Part shown: positions 16,830 through 24,065 of the stretch, piece after piece
How the letters are laid out: every line of letters begins with the position of its first letter
Position numbering within the stretch: the first letter of the stretch is position 1
Assembly (NCBI RefSeq): GCF_035917275.1
Contig: NZ_CP108508.1
Location: 3,286,001 to 3,350,000 of the forward strand
From: Streptomyces sp. NBC_01237
GTDB taxonomy: Bacteria; Actinomycetota; Actinomycetes; Streptomycetales; Streptomycetaceae
Direction of reading: 5' to 3'
Length of the DNA stretch: 64,000 nucleotides
Made by a program: the position numbers and the translations under genes
The notes under the pieces: model-generated
What the model was told of the DNA's origin: nothing
Databases searched by the model: none
The model's input: the letters and a program-made list of their open reading frames with translations, nothing else

Positions 16830-18074
16830 CTACGGGGACGAGGGGGCCGAGTTCTTGGTGTCCTGGGGGGTCGCGCCGGCGTCGTCGCCGCCCGCCGCCA
16901 GCCAGCCGCCCACGGCGACGGCCGCGCACAGGGCGACCGCGGCGACGCCCAGGGTGATGCGGCGCTTGCGGACGGCAGCGGATTTGTTGCGGGCCGATCC
17001 GGGGCGGGGGCGGCCCGGCGCCCGGGGGGCTCGGGCCGTGCCCAGCGGGCCGCCGGCCAGCTCGTCGGGGGCCGGCACGCGCATGCTCGTGTGGGTGTCG
17101 CGGTTGGAGTCCGGCGCGGAGCCGGGGACCAGCGGGACGGCGCCGCGCCTGCGGGGCTCCTCGGCCGGTGTGTACTGCTGCTCGTCGTAGGCCAGCGCCT
17201 GGGGTTCCGTCTCCTCGGCGCCCGGCTCGTCCACGTCGAGCGGGGGTATCCCCGCCAGCAGCGGAAGCAGCTCGCGCAGCCGGTGCGCGAGCTCCGAGGC
17301 GCGCAGCCGGGAGGCCGGTGCCTTGGCCAGGCACTGGACCAGGAGCTGCCAGAGCTCCTCGGGGATACCGGGGAGCGGGACCACGGTCTCGGTCACATGA
17401 CGGCGCAGGACCGCGCCGGGGTGGCCGCCCCCGAAGGGCGTGAACCCGGCGAGGAGCTCGTACAGCACCGTCGCGAGGGCGTAGATGTCCACGGCGGCGC
17501 GCGGCGGGAGTCCCTCGACGATCTCGGGGGCCAGATAGTCCGGCGTACCGATGATCTTGGTGGACTTGGTGCGGCTCGGGGTGTCGATCAGCTTCGCGAC
17601 GCCGAAGTCGGTGAGCAGGGCGGGGTGCGAACCGCCGGGGCCGAGCGGCCCCTCCATGTCGAGCAGGATGTTCTCCGGCTTGACGTCGCGGTGGACCACC
17701 CCGGCGGCGTGCGCGGCGGCGAGGCCGTCGGCGACGTCCGCGATGATCGCGACGGCGGCCTCGGGGGCGAGGCGGCGCTCGCGGTCGAGGCGGGTGCGCA
17801 GATCCGTGCCGCGTACGAGCGTCATGACCAGGGCCAGGTCGTTGCCGTCGACGACGAGGTCGCGGACGGTGACCACCTGGGGATGGTCGAGCCCGAGCAG
17901 GGCGGTGCGCTCCCGCACGAAGCGGCCCACGAGCTCCTGGTCGGACGCGAGGTCCTCGCGGAGCAGCTTGATGGCGACGGGGCCCTCGGGCCCCTCGCCG
18001 AGCCACACCGTGCCGGCGCTGCCGCGCCCCAGGATCTGGTGGGCGGTGTACCGGCTGCCGATATTCCGTGCCAA
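16830..18074 (-). CDS. pkaB: Membrane Ser/Thr protein kinase, PkaB type
   Basis: Hanks-type kinase of about 414 aa. The glycine loop [12 protein letters not shown]-anchoring lysine in VAIK (K36), catalytic HRDVKPEN and metal-binding DFG are intact, ending the kinase domain near 265. A low-complexity linker leads to one C-terminal transmembrane helix (about 372-392) and a short outer tail. I chose a TTG start (18072-18074) because GAGGGAG lies 6 nt upstream and the kinase fold starts at once; the ATG at 18167 would put the start inside the hairpin at 18166-18196. Name follows the pkaB/pkaA pair next to prfB in S. coelicolor. Confidence 0.85.
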
Positions 18075-18165
18075 GACTGCTCCCTCAGCGGCTGGCGTTG
18101 GACCCCCGGTCGACAAAGTTACGCGGCGTTCGGGGTGTTGCGTGCCCTGGATGGCGCCAACCTTC

Positions 18166-18196
18166 ACTTCTCCGGGCCAATTGGGCCCGGAGAAGT
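18166..18196 (-). terminator. 13-bp hairpin between pkaA and pkaB
   Basis: Arms 18166-18178 and 18184-18196 pair perfectly with loop aattg, 25 bp after the pkaA stop. It may partly separate the two kinase genes. Confidence 0.7.
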
Positions 18197-18220: not shown

Positions 18221-19897
18221 TCAGGCGCCGCCGGTGCTGTCGTCGATCTTCGAGACCCAGTCGGTCACGGTGCTGATCGCGTCACCGATCGCTTCCCAGT
18301 AGCCCTTGCCCTGGGCGACCCAGTCCTGAAGCGGCGTCAGCTCCCAGATCAGCCAGCCCGCGATGATCAGCAACACCACCGTGAACAGGCAGCCCTTGAG
18401 GCAGCCGAGACCCGGGATGCGCATGGGGTTGGCGCTGCGCTGCCTCGGCTGGCGCGGCGCGGCCGGCTGCTGGGGCGGTGGCTGCTGCGGGGGCGCGTAC
18501 TGCTGTTGTTGCGGGGGCGCGTACTGCTGCCGCTGGGGCTGCTGAGGCGGTTGTGGCTGCTGGTAGCGCTGGGGCTGCTGCTGCGGCGGGTACTGCTGAT
18601 GCTGAGGCCGCTGCTGGTGCTGAGGCGGTTGCTGCCGCTGCGGAGGCTGCTGGGGCGGCTGCTGGCGCTGGGGCCGACGGCGCAGCGGGTCCTGGCCCGG
18701 GTCGAGGTACTGGACCTGTGTCTGGTCGTTGCGGTCACGCGCGGCCTGGAGCTGCCCCTGCCAGGGGTGCGGGCCGTCGGGCTGCGGAGGGCCGTCGGGG
18801 TGCTGCGGTACGGGCGGCATGACCGAGGTCGGGTCGGCGTCACCCGCACCCCCCTGGCCGAAGCCGGCCTGTCCCGGGGTCTGCTGGAGGACGCTGGTCG
18901 GGGCGGCGGGGTCGTACGAACCCGCGTTGCTCGGCAGCATCTGCGTGGGGTCGGCCGCCCCGGGGGTCTCCGGGACCGCGGCGGGCGCCGGGTCGGGTGC
19001 CAGCAGGGCGCCCACACCGTCGGCGGCCGCGATCTGGGACGAGTTGGCGTGTACGCCGATGCCCGCGGCGACGGTACGCAGTCCGCGGGCGAGGTTCTCG
19101 GCGCTGGGCCGCCGGTCGGGGTCCTTGCTCAGGCAGCGCTCTATGACCGTCCACAGCGGTGCGGGGACGGTACTCGGGCGGCGGGGCTCCTCGCTGAGGT
19201 GCCGGTGCAGGACCTCCAGGGCGGTGCCCCCGGCGAACGGCGGGCGTCCGGTGACCAGTTCGTACAGCAGGATGCCCGCGCCGTAGATGTCCACGGCGGA
19301 GGTCTGCGGGCGGCCCTCGGCGGACTCGGGCGCCACATAGGCGGGGGTGCCGACGAACTCGTGGGTCCGGGTCAGCCCCGGGGAGTCGGCGAGGCGCGCG
19401 ATGCCGAAGTCGGTGAGCATCGGGTGCATCTGGCCGTCGCGCTCGTCGACCAGCACATTGGCGGGCTTGAGGTCGCGGTGGACGACACCGTCGGCGTGGC
19501 TGGCGGCGAGCGCGTCCGCGATCTGAGCGGTCAGCAGGGCGGCGGCGACCGGGGTGAGCGGGCCGTTCTCGCGCAGATACCGGTGCAGGTCGGGACCGTC
19601 GATGAGGTCCATCACCAGGGCGAGGAGATCGCCCTCGACGACGAGGTCCCGGGTGCGCACGATGTTCGGGTGGGTGAGCCGCAGCAGCACGGAGCGCTCC
19701 CGCAGGAACCGCATCACCACATCGGCGTCGTTGGCGAGCTCCTCCTTGAGGACCTTGATCGCCACGGTCTCGCCGGGCTGACCCGCGACGGCCGCCTCGG
19801 CGCCCGCGGTCTCCCGCTGGCGGGCTCGCCAGACGGTGCCCGTGGCGCCGCGTCCGAGCGGCTCCTCGAGCAGGTACTTGCTGCCTACCGGCCGCAC
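18221..19897 (-). CDS. pkaA: Membrane Ser/Thr protein kinase, PkaA type
   Basis: Hanks-type kinase of about 558 aa. The motifs GRGATGTVW, VAIK (K48), HRDLKPAN, DFG and the APE-like VAPESAEG are intact. After the kinase domain (about 1-275) come a Pro/Gln-rich stretch (about 415-490) and one transmembrane helix (about 508-530) with a short extracellular end. The start is GTG at 19895-19897, preceded by GGGAG. The Gln/Pro tract is typical of PkaA. The adjacent FHA gene is a candidate reader of its phosphorylation. Confidence 0.87.
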   Translation of the reverse strand: MRPVGSKYLLEEPLGRGATGTVWRARQRETAGAEAAVAGQPGETVAIKVLKEELANDADVVMRFLRERSVLLRLTHPNIVRTRDLVVEGDLLALVMDLIDGPDLHRYLRENGPLTPVAAALLTAQIADALAASHADGVVHRDLKPANVLVDERDGQMHPMLTDFGIARLADSPGLTRTHEFVGTPAYVAPESAEGRPQTSAVDIYGAGILLYELVTGRPPFAGGTALEVLHRHLSEEPRRPSTVPAPLWTVIERCLSKDPDRRPSAENLARGLRTVAAGIGVHANSSQIAAADGVGALLAPDPAPAAVPETPGAADPTQMLPSNAGSYDPAAPTSVLQQTPGQAGFGQGGAGDADPTSVMPPVPQHPDGPPQPDGPHPWQGQLQAARDRNDQTQVQYLDPGQDPLRRRPQRQQPPQQPPQRQQPPQHQQRPQHQQYPPQQQPQRYQQPQPPQQPQRQQYAPPQQQQYAPPQQPPPQQPAAPRQPRQRSANPMRIPGLGCLKGCLFTVVLLIIAGWLIWELTPLQDWVAQGKGYWEAIGDAISTVTDWVSKIDDSTGGA

Positions 19898-20091
19898 GTC
19901 ATGCGCTCCCTGCTGATCGTGGTGCTTGCGGTCCCCCCGGGCCCGCCCGGATGTTCCGGCCCACTCTAGTGCCGCCGAAGGTGGCACCGGCCGGTCGTCT
20001 TCCGGTCTTGGTCCCGCCGCGTCGTGAAGTCGTCCCGGCGGGTGTCCTGCCGTGTCCGGAGGAAGACGCACACAGGGGACAGATGGTTGCC

Positions 20092-20103
20092 GAACAGACG
20101 TTC
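20092..20103. promoter_or_regulatory. Candidate LexA (SOS) box
   Basis: The palindrome GAACAGACGTTC is a perfect match to the core GAAC-N4-GTTC recognised by actinobacterial LexA, with flanks C and T close to the extended form. It lies 285 bp before the FHA-ATPase ATG and 195 bp before the pkaA start. Confidence 0.5.
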
Positions 20104-20222
20104 TATAAACCTGCCCCACGTACGGCCGGGATCTCCCCGGACGGCTCGAACCCGACCCAAGCAGGCATTTTTACGTCCACACTCAGCCATTCAAGATCAT
20201 TTGAAGGTGGCCCCCGGGCGTG

Positions 20223-20245
20223 TTGTCAGTGGCAGGTGCGAGGAT
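20223..20245 (+). promoter_or_regulatory. Candidate PafBC DNA-damage promoter
   Basis: TTGTCAGTG (20223-20231), an 8-bp gap, then GAGGAT (20240-20245) fits the RecA-NDp/PafBC promoter pattern TTGTCRGTG-N8-TANNNT except for G in place of the first T of the -10. It would direct an mRNA with about 135 nt of leader into the FHA gene. Confidence 0.55.
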
Positions 20246-20387
20246 GCCTTCCAGCACGGAACCATGGGGTCGGGAACCTCGCGGTCCGTGTCGACCTGTA
20301 CCGGACGACGCGTCCGTGCCGGCCGGGGGGACATCACAGGGCGTTTCCCCTGCCGGGCACCCCGCGCAGAAGGGACCGCTGACGGCG

Positions 20388-23300
20388 ATGCAGATCCGGC
20401 TGACCGTCCTCGCGCCGCGCAGCGGCCAGACCCCGGCACGCGCCTGCGACGTGCTCGTCACCGCCCCGGCCGGGACGGCGCTCGCCGCCGTCGCCTCCGG
20501 CCTGGCCGCGGCCGTCTCGGGGCCCGACAGTTCTCTCGGCGGCGGAGCGGTGGTGCTGTTCGCCGGACGGGAACGGCTCGACGCGCACCGCATCGCCCTG
20601 GGCGATCCGCCCCTGGTGGACGGCGCGGTGCTCTCGCTCCAGGTGCCCGGTGACGACGAAGCGGCGGACGACACCGTCCCGGCGCAGCTGCATGTGGTCG
20701 CGGGCCCCGACGCGGGCGGCGTCCACCTGCTGCACGGCGGGCAGATCCGGATCGGCCGCTCGGCCGACGCGGACGTCCCGCTCGACGACCCGGACGTGTC
20801 CCGGCTGCACTGCGCGGTGACGGTCTCCGAGGACGGCCGGGTCTCGGTCGCCGACCTGGGTTCCACCAACGGCACCTCGCTGGACGGTACGGAGGTCCGC
20901 GACCGCCCGGTCCCGCTCCTCCCGGGCGCACTGCTGCGGCTCGGCGAATCGACGCTGCGGCTCACCGCGGGCTCCCGTACGGCGACCCTGGCGACCGCGC
21001 CGGACGGTGAGGGGCACCTGCGGGTGGCCCGGGCGGAACCCGACGCCCCGGGGGGCGGCCCCGCGGCCGGAGACGGCTTCGCGGGCACCGCGGGCGGCTT
21101 CGGCGACGAGGACCCGGACGGCTCCGGGCACGCCTACAGCCAGGCCCCCTCCCACGGTGATCCCGGACCGCAGGGGCACGACGCGCACCGGCAGGACGAC
21201 GAAGGCGGCGAGCACGCACACGGGCCGGACACCGTCCGGCGCCACTCCACGCACGCACGCGGCACCCGGTACGGCGAGAGCGAGGCGCCCCGGCGCGGCG
21301 GTATAGGCGCCTGGGCCCGGCGGCTCACGGGCGGCAAGGGCGATCCGGCACAGGACCCGGACGCGGGCGCACCGGGGAGAGCGGCACCCGACTCCCCGGA
21401 GCGGGCGCGGTCCTCCCACACCGGGCACGCCTCGTTCGACGCCCCCTCCTCCTTCTCCCCGTCCTCCTCCTCTCCCTCTCCTTTCTCCTCCGCGCCCGCG
21501 GGCACCTGGCCCGATCCGGCGGCCGTGCTGCTGACCGCGCTCGGCCCGGGACCCCGGCTGTGGGAGCGCGACGCCGCCCACCCGGAGGCACTCGTCGTAC
21601 GGCTGGGGACGACCGACCGGGCCGATCTGCCCGCCGTGCCGGTGACCGTGGGGCTGCGGGAGGCCGGTTCGCTCGGCCTCGCCGGACCGCGCGAACGGCT
21701 GGCGGGTCTGGCCCGCTCGACCGTGGCGCAGCTCGCCGCGCTGCACTCCCCGTTCGACCTGGAGATCGTGCTGATCAGCACGGACCGGGCCCGTTCCGCG
21801 GACGAGCGGCGGCGGGAGTGGGCCTGGCTGGGATGGCTGCCGCATCTGCGCCCGATGCACGGTCAGGACTGCCGGCTCCTCCTCGCGTACGACCGTGAGC
21901 AGGCCATGGCCCGTACGGCGGAGCTGGTCCGCCGCCTGGACGAGGGCCCGCTCGGCCCCGGCTGGCCGAGCGTGGACCGGTCCGCGGTGGCCGAGGCCGC
22001 CCGCGCCCATACGGGTCCGCACACCGTGGTGATCGTCGACGGCGACCCCGGTTCCTCGGTGCTGCGCGAGACCACGGCCAGGCTGGCCGGTGCGGGAGCG
22101 GCCGCCGGAATCCATCTGATCTGCCTCGCCGAGACCCCCGCCGCGTCGCCCACGTCGCCGGTCACCGCGACCTATGAGACCGCGTGCCAGACCTCGATCG
22201 CCTTCCGCGAGTGCGGGGCGGTCGCCATGCTGAGCGGCGATGTGGCGACGGCGCTGCGGTTGCTGCGCACGGCGGGCGGCCAGGTCGCGGGGCACGGCAC
22301 CGTCGCCGCGGTGGACGCGGTGTCGGCCGCCTGGGCCGAGCGGTTCGGGCGGGCCCTGGCGCCGTTGCGCGACGAGGGCTCGGCCGCGCTGCCGGGCCGC
22401 CCGACGGCAGCGGCCCTGCCGCCGTCCGCCCGGTTGCTCGACGAGCTGGGGCTGGCCCGCGCCACCCCGGCATCACTGATGGCGCGTTGGGCGTCCACGG
22501 CGGAGAGCCAGCCGGGCGCCACGGTCCGTCCCGCGGCCGCCGCGCCGAGGTCGGACCTCGACACCCCGGGCTCGGGCCGCACCCTGAGCACGGGCCCCCG
22601 CGTGGGCGCCCAGCGCACGGGCCACGACCCGTACCACCGCGCCCCGGAACCGACGGACTCAGGACGCACGCCATATCCGGGCACGGACGGCCGAAGCTCG
22701 GGCAGCACGCCGTATCCGGGCACGGACGGCCGGGGCTCGGGGCGCACGCCGTATCCGGGCACGGACGGCCGGGGCTCGGGGCACACGCCGTATCCCGGCG
22801 CGGACTCCCGGGGCTCGGGGCGCACCCCTTATCCCGGCAGCGCCTCCGACCACACGCCGTACTTCGGCACCGACACCCGTGGCTCCGGGCGTACGCCCTA
22901 CCCGGGTACGGACTCCCGTGGCTCCGGACGTACTCCTTATCCCGGCAGCGCCGCCCCGCAGACCTCGTCCCGGACCGCCCCGCAGACCGCAGCGCAGCCC
23001 GCGTCGGGCGCCGCCGTGTACGCCGGGCGGCCGGTGCTCGTGCTCGGGGCGGGGCCGCGCGGCGCCCTCAGTGTCGATCTGGCCGACGAAGGGCCGCACC
23101 TCCTCATCGAGGGACCGGCGGGCAGCGGGCGCACCGAGCTGCTGCGGGCCGTGGCCGCCTCGCTCGCCTCCGCCGCCCGCCCCGACCGGCTCGGCATCCT
23201 GCTGGTCGACGGGGCCGCGGGCGAGCACGGAGAGCGCGGCGAAGGGCTGCGTCCCTGCACGGAACTCCCGCATGTGTTCACGCACTTGATGGCGTCGGAC

Positions 23301-24065
23301 CCCGTACGGATGCGGGAGTTCGCGCAGGCGTTGGGCGGTGAGCTGAAGCGGCGGGCCGAACTGCTCGGCCCGCTGGACTTCGCCGCGTGGCACGCCCAGC
23401 ACGAGGTCTCGCAGCGGCTCGTGGGCCAGCGTCCGCCCAGCGCCGCCGAACAGCGCGGCGACCTGGACTCCCCCGCCGGCGGCACCCTGCGGCTGCGGCC
23501 CGCCGCCGTACGGGCCATGGACCCGGGCCCCTCCCCGCTGCCCCGGCTCGTCGTCCTCGCCGACGACTTCGACGCCCTGGTCGCCCCGGCGCTCGGCAGC
23601 CCCGGCCGCCCTGCCGCGGGGTCGGTCGTACGGGCGCTGGAGGCCGTCGCCAGGGACGGCGGACGGCTCGGCGTCCATCTGGTCGCCACCTCCGCCCGCC
23701 CGGACCGCACCGAGGACACGGAGCTGGCCCGCGGCGCCCGGCTGCGCATCGTGCTCGACGCGCCGGTCCTGCCGCCCTCCCCGGACGAACCGGCGCCGGG
23801 ACGTGGGCGGTTGGGGCACCCGGACGGCCGGGTGACGCCGTTCCAGGGCGGCCGGGTCACGGGCCGCATCCCGCGCACGGCGACCCTGCGCCCCACCGTC
23901 GTACCGCTGGAGTGGGAGCGGATGGGCGATCCGCCCACCCGTCGGCCGCTGCGGGAGCTCGGCAACGGGCCGACGGACCTGGCGCTGCTCGCCAGTGCGC
24001 TGGAGCGCGCGGCCCGTTCGGTGAACGCTGAACGACTCCCTCCGCTTATCCCGTTCTCTTCCTGA
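20388..24065 (+). CDS. FHA-domain protein with FtsK/EccC-like ATPase regions
   Basis: Large cytoplasmic protein of 1225 aa. Residues about 1-90 may be a ubiquitin-like fold. An FHA domain (about 100-193) has all key residues: GRS (123-125), SRLH (138-141) and STNGT (159-163), so it should bind phosphothreonine. A disordered acidic/Ser-rich linker is followed by an FtsK/SpoIIIE-like region (about 380-680), a tandem repeat (758-855), and a second ATPase region with GPAGSGRTE at about 909 (Arg in the Walker A lysine position) and LVVLADDFD at about 1053. The start is ATG 20388 after AAGGGA. No WXG100 genes are near, so type VII secretion is not established. Confidence 0.75.
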   Translation: MQIRLTVLAPRSGQTPARACDVLVTAPAGTALAAVASGLAAAVSGPDSSLGGGAVVLFAGRERLDAHRIALGDPPLVDGAVLSLQVPGDDEAADDTVPAQLHVVAGPDAGGVHLLHGGQIRIGRSADADVPLDDPDVSRLHCAVTVSEDGRVSVADLGSTNGTSLDGTEVRDRPVPLLPGALLRLGESTLRLTAGSRTATLATAPDGEGHLRVARAEPDAPGGGPAAGDGFAGTAGGFGDEDPDGSGHAYSQAPSHGDPGPQGHDAHRQDDEGGEHAHGPDTVRRHSTHARGTRYGESEAPRRGGIGAWARRLTGGKGDPAQDPDAGAPGRAAPDSPERARSSHTGHASFDAPSSFSPSSSSPSPFSSAPAGTWPDPAAVLLTALGPGPRLWERDAAHPEALVVRLGTTDRADLPAVPVTVGLREAGSLGLAGPRERLAGLARSTVAQLAALHSPFDLEIVLISTDRARSADERRREWAWLGWLPHLRPMHGQDCRLLLAYDREQAMARTAELVRRLDEGPLGPGWPSVDRSAVAEAARAHTGPHTVVIVDGDPGSSVLRETTARLAGAGAAAGIHLICLAETPAASPTSPVTATYETACQTSIAFRECGAVAMLSGDVATALRLLRTAGGQVAGHGTVAAVDAVSAAWAERFGRALAPLRDEGSAALPGRPTAAALPPSARLLDELGLARATPASLMARWASTAESQPGATVRPAAAAPRSDLDTPGSGRTLSTGPRVGAQRTGHDPYHRAPEPTDSGRTPYPGTDGRSSGSTPYPGTDGRGSGRTPYPGTDGRGSGHTPYPGADSRGSGRTPYPGSASDHTPYFGTDTRGSGRTPYPGTDSRGSGRTPYPGSAAPQTSSRTAPQTAAQPASGAAVYAGRPVLVLGAGPRGALSVDLADEGPHLLIEGPAGSGRTELLRAVAASLASAARPDRLGILLVDGAAGEHGERGEGLRPCTELPHVFTHLMASDPVRMREFAQALGGELKRRAELLGPLDFAAWHAQHEVSQRLVGQRPPSAAEQRGDLDSPAGGTLRLRPAAVRAMDPGPSPLPRLVVLADDFDALVAPALGSPGRPAAGSVVRALEAVARDGGRLGVHLVATSARPDRTEDTELARGARLRIVLDAPVLPPSPDEPAPGRGRLGHPDGRVTPFQGGRVTGRIPRTATLRPTVVPLEWERMGDPPTRRPLRELGNGPTDLALLASALERAARSVNAERLPPLIPFSS
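22659..22953 (+). repeat. 39-bp repeats encoding SGRTPYPGTDGRG
   Basis: About eight in-frame units, one shortened, with the invariant core TPYPG (one TPYFG), between the two ATPase regions of the FHA protein. Threonines and tyrosines in each unit are potential phosphorylation sites. Confidence 0.85.

Follow-up and report, generated by a model that had tools for sequence, protein, structure and literature searches.

A putative RecA-NDp (PafBC)-type promoter precedes the gene for an FHA protein with a degenerate P-loop in Streptomyces

RecA-NDp/PafBC promoters, typified by those of recA in Streptomyces and mycobacteria, share the consensus TTGTCRGTG followed, after an 8-base spacer, by the -10 sequence TANNNT. 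Promoters of this class from Streptomyces are already in print: the available part of PMC5087735, which cites Ahel 2002 and Gamulin 2004, describes a UV-inducible S. coelicolor gene with a RecA-NDp promoter. For the LexA system of S. venezuelae the accessible portion of PMC9380542 gives the consensus tCGAAC-N4-GNNCGa, and states that, by an initial motif search, this species seemed not to conserve the mycobacterial PafBC motif. In the envelope stress response, the excerpted table of PMC6767563 contains GGCAACCACGGGACCGGGTCGAG-CGTCTT as the sigma-E promoter of pkaA (sco2974), and also has among its targets sco2975, whose product is hypothetical and whose own sigma-E-like site is poor. With regard to type VII secretion ATPases, the available part of PMC9436818 reports that mutation of G1019/R1020 in the EssC D2 Walker A, together with D1118, impairs complex assembly. 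Among the titles and opening lines of abstracts listed, none concerns a damage-regulated FHA-FtsK protein.

The window considered here is a 64,000-nt stretch of DNA, contig positions 3286001-3350000 in a genome of 10.19 Mb spread over 4 contigs, and the closest named relatives among the matches listed are Streptomyces. The features that concern gene order and control are as follows.

16830..18167, minus strand: second Ser/Thr kinase
18221..19897, minus strand: Ser/Thr kinase next to the FHA gene
20063..20091, minus strand: sigma-E-type promoter GGCAAC-N17-CGTCTT, serving the divergent kinase and present in strict form in 68/84 orthologous upstream regions
20092..20103, no strand: LexA-like palindrome GAACAGACGTTC, most likely fortuitous
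20191..20199, plus strand: conserved motif TCAAGATCA upstream of the core, with YTT after it in most regions
20216..20220, plus strand: conserved GGGCG shortly 5' of TTGTC, weighted column frequencies 0.92-1.00
20223..20231, plus strand: PafBC/RecA-NDp-type core TTGTCAGTG, TTGTCRGTG intact in 54/84 orthologous upstream regions
20240..20245, plus strand: -10 hexamer GAGGAT, with TGC just before it at 20237-20239
20246..20387, plus strand: G+C-rich conserved leader ending at the start codon, in which GGTGGGGG/CCCCTGCC is predicted to form a hairpin
20388..24065, plus strand: gene for the FHA + EccC/FtsK-like protein, 1225 aa

The FHA gene begins at ATG 20388, and the opening MQIRLTV is found in all 67 loci that include the N-terminus. 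To its left, on the opposite strand, lie the two Ser/Thr kinases named in the preliminary description and a gene with release-factor domains, and farther left ftsE, ftsX and smpB, recognised by sequence; to its right are a solute-binding protein and two transport permeases. The gap of ∼ 490 bases appears from its sequence to hold two back-to-back promoters, one directed leftward to the kinase and one rightward to the FHA gene. The adjacent kinase probably starts at GTG 19897 and, judged from promoter likeness and gene order, is probably the ortholog of pkaA/SCO2974. The FHA gene we take to be the counterpart of SCO2975, given gene order and the paired sco2974/sco2975 entries in the excerpted table of PMC6767563.

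Orthologous loci were drawn from the best 80 of at least 183 relatives; all 80 have plain Streptomyces titles apart from L016 ([Kitasatospora] papulosa) and L074 (a Streptomycetaceae MAG), and 13 that lack the N-terminus of the gene were excluded from upstream counts. The window, the remaining 67 loci and 16 of the 30 loci of a second set make up 84 upstream regions. In each region the element was taken as the best match to the 23-mer of the window, a selection that favours conservation.

The 23-mer TTGTCAGTGGCAGGTGCGAGGAT (20223-20245) has the layout TTGTCAGTG-N8-GAGGAT, with an exact TTGTCRGTG set 8 bases ahead of the -10. It shares its first 14 bases with the promoter of recA in the same genome, TTGTCAGTGGCAGGGGTTAGCGT. 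The -10 hexamer retains the A and T of TANNNT, with G replacing the first T; at other sites in the genome the hexamer reads CAGCAT (Y-family polymerase) and CAGGAT (ligase). When the 23-mer was matched to 68 upstream regions every one contained a version with 0-5 mismatches, compared with 6-12 for 50 shuffled versions, and the element lay between 79 and 208 bases upstream of the ATG. Moreover, GAGGATG is present in 82 of the 84 regions and TGCGAGGATGC in 78. Sequence and conservation support the PafBC promoter claimed in the preliminary description as a member of the RecA-NDp class, with a core that departs from the consensus in 30/84 regions. It differs from described members of the class in the G that opens its -10, in an extra conserved upstream motif, in a core less conserved than those of recA and ruvC, and in its leader, which would be ∼ 136 bases long with a transcription start 7 bases past the -10.

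Sites of the form TTGTCAGTG-N9-AGNNT are rare, with 20 in the 10.19 Mb genome and 1 for the reversed control. Pfam analysis of the proteins downstream of 10 of the 20 sites identified five DNA repair or replication proteins (uracil-DNA glycosylase, Y-family polymerase, MgsA/RarA, a DEAD-type helicase and NAD-dependent DNA ligase), one sigma factor, three proteins with DUF or HEAT domains and one without a match. Two more sites, among the 10 outside the Pfam test, precede recA and ruvC, which were recognised by sequence; at least one site (L090) seems to lie within a coding frame. A search with the 3' part of the 23-mer gave 67 matches at up to 3 mismatches and 58 for the reversed control, so that enrichment is not clear for that part. 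The genome also encodes PafC, identified by a protein match to the solved PafC structure (1.9e-54), and the adjoining gene encodes a second WYL protein, by its adjacency the putative PafB.

Some of the twenty sites (L085-L104) lie before DUF6891, DUF5713, HEAT-repeat and sigma factor genes, which on sequence grounds are candidate new members of the damage regulon. At several, the first possible start codon is 29-32 bases past the start of TTGTC, near the expected transcription start.

Conservation of the core was compared between genes in matched genomes (G000-G018). TTGTCRGTG is intact before recA in 19/19, before ruvC in 15/18 and before the FHA gene in 11/18; G008 is without a comparable FHA ortholog (best E 3.2e-12), G010, without a ruvC site, was left out of the ruvC set, the second-ranked ruvC candidate was used for G012, and the second recA copy of G005 received no locus. 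Fisher's test on core loss gave p 0.0095, or 0.027 with the site-less ruvC genome scored as lost, for species that share descent and so are not independent. Departures per 100 bases were 8.0 in the core and 5.6 in the spacer of the FHA element, 0.0 and 5.9 for recA, and 1.9 and 16.0 for ruvC. The lax part of the FHA element is its core, and its spacer is not special. The commonest change, T to C at position 8, gives TTGTCAGCG and occurs in 18/84 regions; TTGTCAGCG-N9-AGNNT has 0 sites in this genome and likewise 0 in the control. PafBC control of the FHA gene is thus plausible on sequence evidence and would not be uniform across species, in some of which PafBC dependence may have been lost or weakened.

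Upstream of the core, TCAAGATCA is present in 76/84 regions, and in 76/76 of these it starts exactly 32 bases 5' of TTGTC; TCAAGATCA[CT]TT occurs in 65/84. No known factor for this motif was recognised. In the consensus, CACTT overlaps the end of TCAAGATCA, and a further CACTT lies 32 bases upstream. The conservation of this motif bears on an alternative, which we regard as possible if somewhat doubtful, that the rightward promoter is not primarily PafBC-dependent but of a gene-specific, activator-dependent extended -10 kind with a factor acting at TCAAGATCA, its likeness to RecA-NDp promoters being partial or inherited. Both TCAAGATCA at its fixed distance of 32 bases (76/84) and TGCGAGGATGC (78/84) are kept more often than the intact PafBC core (54/84), which speaks for this alternative. 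Against it, the core is intact in most species, the first 14 bases of the element are those of recA, and such sites are rare in the genome (20, and 1 in the control). The upstream motif, for its part, shows no regulon: TTCAAGATCAYTT gave 7 genome matches at up to 1 mismatch (1 exact) and 0 in the control, in contexts that form no clear promoter set, and a further occurrence of the 12-mer TCAAGATCACTT (L202) sits within an apparent coding frame. This genome search was narrower than ideal because the first T of TTCAAGATCAYTT is not conserved, TTCAAGATCA[CT]TT being found in only 44/84 regions against 76/84 for TCAAGATCA.

Loci from other families bear on the same alternative. TCAAGATCA was not found in their 12 regions. 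TGCGAGGATGC is found in 7, all from one genus, with no core at PafBC spacing; such persistence fits an extended -10 promoter. In these 7 regions the block lies 7 nt before the ATG, so that the -10 reading gains independent support in that genus. The other 5 regions have no -10 block. recA keeps an intact core in 8/11 other-family loci. In two loci of another genus (L192 and L195), by contrast, TGTCAGAA stands at PafBC spacing before TANNNT, which argues against the extended -10 alternative, albeit as an observation made after the fact. We favour a rightward promoter of the RecA-NDp class that may receive a second input from another factor. As a separate observation, the ruvC frames of six other-family genomes (L158-L163) contain one TGA inside the matched stretch.

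The leader is strongly conserved, including CAGAAGGGACCGCTGACGGCG before the ATG, and is far shorter in some species. A known structured RNA leader was rejected, as Rfam gave no match to the leader up to E 5 and covariation was weak (consensus fold of 27 leaders: covariation term -0.25, two-sided change in 2/31 pairs). An upstream coding extension was likewise rejected, as the distance between the element and the ATG varies by non-multiples of three; frame 0 upstream of the ATG has a stop in 23/85 rows, the window being counted twice.

The protein encoded by the FHA gene has the following features.

20745..20945, plus strand: FHA domain, aa 120-186, Pfam 4.8e-17, phosphothreonine-site residues invariant
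21624..22502, plus strand: EccCa-like module, aa 413-705, with no P-loop recognisable by eye
23112..23147, plus strand: Walker A-like GPAGSGRTELLR, Lys replaced by Arg
23550..23573, plus strand: Walker B-like VVLADDFD, with Asp-Asp

The FHA domain is complete, as the preliminary description had it, and its G, R, S, R, H and N residues, from the GR, S-R-x-H and N-G motifs, are invariant in 67/67 Streptomycetaceae and 6/6 other-family proteins; 3 of 68 translations, each below 900 aa, were left out of the protein motif counts. Together with gene order, this invariant site supports the proposed link to the kinases. The similarity to FtsK/EccC ATPases is also borne out (Pfam FtsK_SpoIIIE 4.5e-13, EccCa 6.8e-37), at scores far below curated cut-offs (EccCa 127.5 bits against 509.15, EssC 62 against 778.4). 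The protein resembles the EssC/EccC type VII secretion ATPases in its EccCa-like and FtsK-like modules, resembles EssC in its N-terminal FHA domain, and perhaps shares with EssC D2 an Arg in a Walker A. It differs from them in its degenerate P-loops, in the absence of secretion genes among the tested neighbours of the FHA gene, and perhaps in lacking membrane helices between the FHA and ATPase modules: in a hydropathy scan the top of the five best windows (1.68, aa 22-40) is borderline and N-terminal to the FHA domain, and no window outside aa 19-43 exceeds 1.46.

At the position of the Walker A Lys, the Streptomycetaceae proteins have Arg in 64/67 and Lys in 3/67, and the six other-family proteins have Val, Ile or no equivalent residue (6/6). 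The usual Walker B pair is Asp-Glu; here the second acidic residue is Asp in 65/67, the remaining 2 being gaps, while the six other-family proteins have Asp, Gly or Asn. GTTGSGKS is retained in a paralog encoded at another place in the genome. That the protein acts as an active EccC/FtsK-type motor under kinase regulation is consistent with the Pfam matches and with the GSGKT kept by three orthologs at the more divergent end (47-55% identity), yet it appears very unlikely in view of the Lys missing from the rest and of the Walker B Asp. Similarly, the ‘ATPase acting on DNA’ of the preliminary description has little support, since the one P-loop that can be recognised is without its Lys in 70 of 73 orthologs (67 Streptomycetaceae and 6 from other families). 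By analogy with R1020 of EssC (PMC9436818), if that Arg is the Lys-equivalent residue, Arg at this position may not by itself mean an inactive enzyme; the loss of Lys in 6/6 proteins outside the Streptomycetaceae is a stronger argument for inactivity than the Arg alone. A role as a phosphothreonine-reading scaffold would fit these features better than that of a DNA motor.

The leftward half of the gap contains the palindrome that the preliminary description read as a LexA box. The sigma-E element of the kinase, absent from that description along with the motif at 20191-20199 and the degenerate ATP-binding motif, consists of 29 bases, GGCAACCATCTGTCCCCTGTGTG-CGTCTT, on the minus strand (20091-20063), and the palindrome starts at the first base past it, touching the -35 of the kinase promoter. 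GAAC-N4-GTTC is found once in the 64,000-nt window, with 0.61 expected and 49 of 100 shuffles reaching 1. Its strict form occurs in 2/84 upstream regions, those of the window and of L005, the closest relative of the window among the matches listed. The window palindrome fits the CGAAC-N4-GNNC part of tCGAAC-N4-GNNCGa, the consensus in the accessible portion of PMC9380542, with T as the next base where the consensus has G. CGAAC-N4-GNNC or its mirror is present at any position in 20/84 regions, compared with 8 when the halves were reversed as a control; in 9/84 it borders the sigma-E element just as it does in the window, and the other occurrences are scattered. Genome-wide, CGAACNNNNGTTCG gave 13 palindromes, and 4 for the reversed control.

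The conserved signal at this position is the envelope-stress promoter of the kinase, and the resemblance to a LexA site is therefore most likely accidental: chance sequence, as judged from these comparisons, beside the known cell-wall-stress (sigma-E) promoter of the neighbouring gene. LexA control of the FHA gene was rejected on the strict SOS box in 2/84 regions and its chance-level occurrence in the window. Both motifs of the preliminary description exist where it placed them, yet they form no pair on one gene; of the two, only the PafBC-type element gains support from orthologous regions, and the argument from two damage systems falls because its LexA half fails on conservation. Dual control of the FHA gene by LexA and PafBC is thus very unlikely, for although both strings are present and the relaxed site exceeds its control, the strict palindrome is not conserved and abuts the promoter of another gene.

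The sigma-E element shares with that of pkaA/SCO2974, as given in the excerpted table of PMC6767563, both the GGCAAC-N17-CGTCTT layout and an orientation divergent from the FHA gene. The strong site of that system differs from a promoter of the FHA gene in that it points to the kinase, away from the FHA gene. Because sco2975, with its poor site, stands in the same target table, the FHA gene may also receive some sigma-E input.

These observations can be assembled into a model on which, taken as a whole, our judgement is evenly balanced. The leftward promoter would be a sigma-E promoter that drives the kinase PkaA in response to envelope stress. On DNA damage, PafBC would bring RNA polymerase to TTGTCAGTG with its -10 GAGGAT, inducing the FHA gene, and the conserved TCAAGATCA would contribute a second input. 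The FHA protein, its P-loop Lys lost, could then bind threonine-phosphorylated targets of the neighbouring kinases, PkaA being a putative partner, and serve as a scaffold. A wider extension, which we consider rather unlikely, is that the locus is a conserved actinobacterial node at which one gap splits sigma-E control of the kinase PkaA (envelope stress) from control of the phosphothreonine reader by PafBC and an upstream factor (DNA damage), with an EccC-derived FHA pseudo-ATPase integrating both stresses via threonine phosphorylation.

The remark on the PafBC motif in the accessible portion of PMC9380542 fits poorly with the recA motif intact in 19/19 genomes of the genus; in the Streptomyces genome studied here, the motif class is instead enriched 20 to 1 and precedes recA, ruvC and repair genes. 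If PafBC drives the FHA gene, the Streptomyces damage response would include a reader of Ser/Thr phosphorylation and, if true, this would offer a direct handle on how repair is tied to growth and the envelope.
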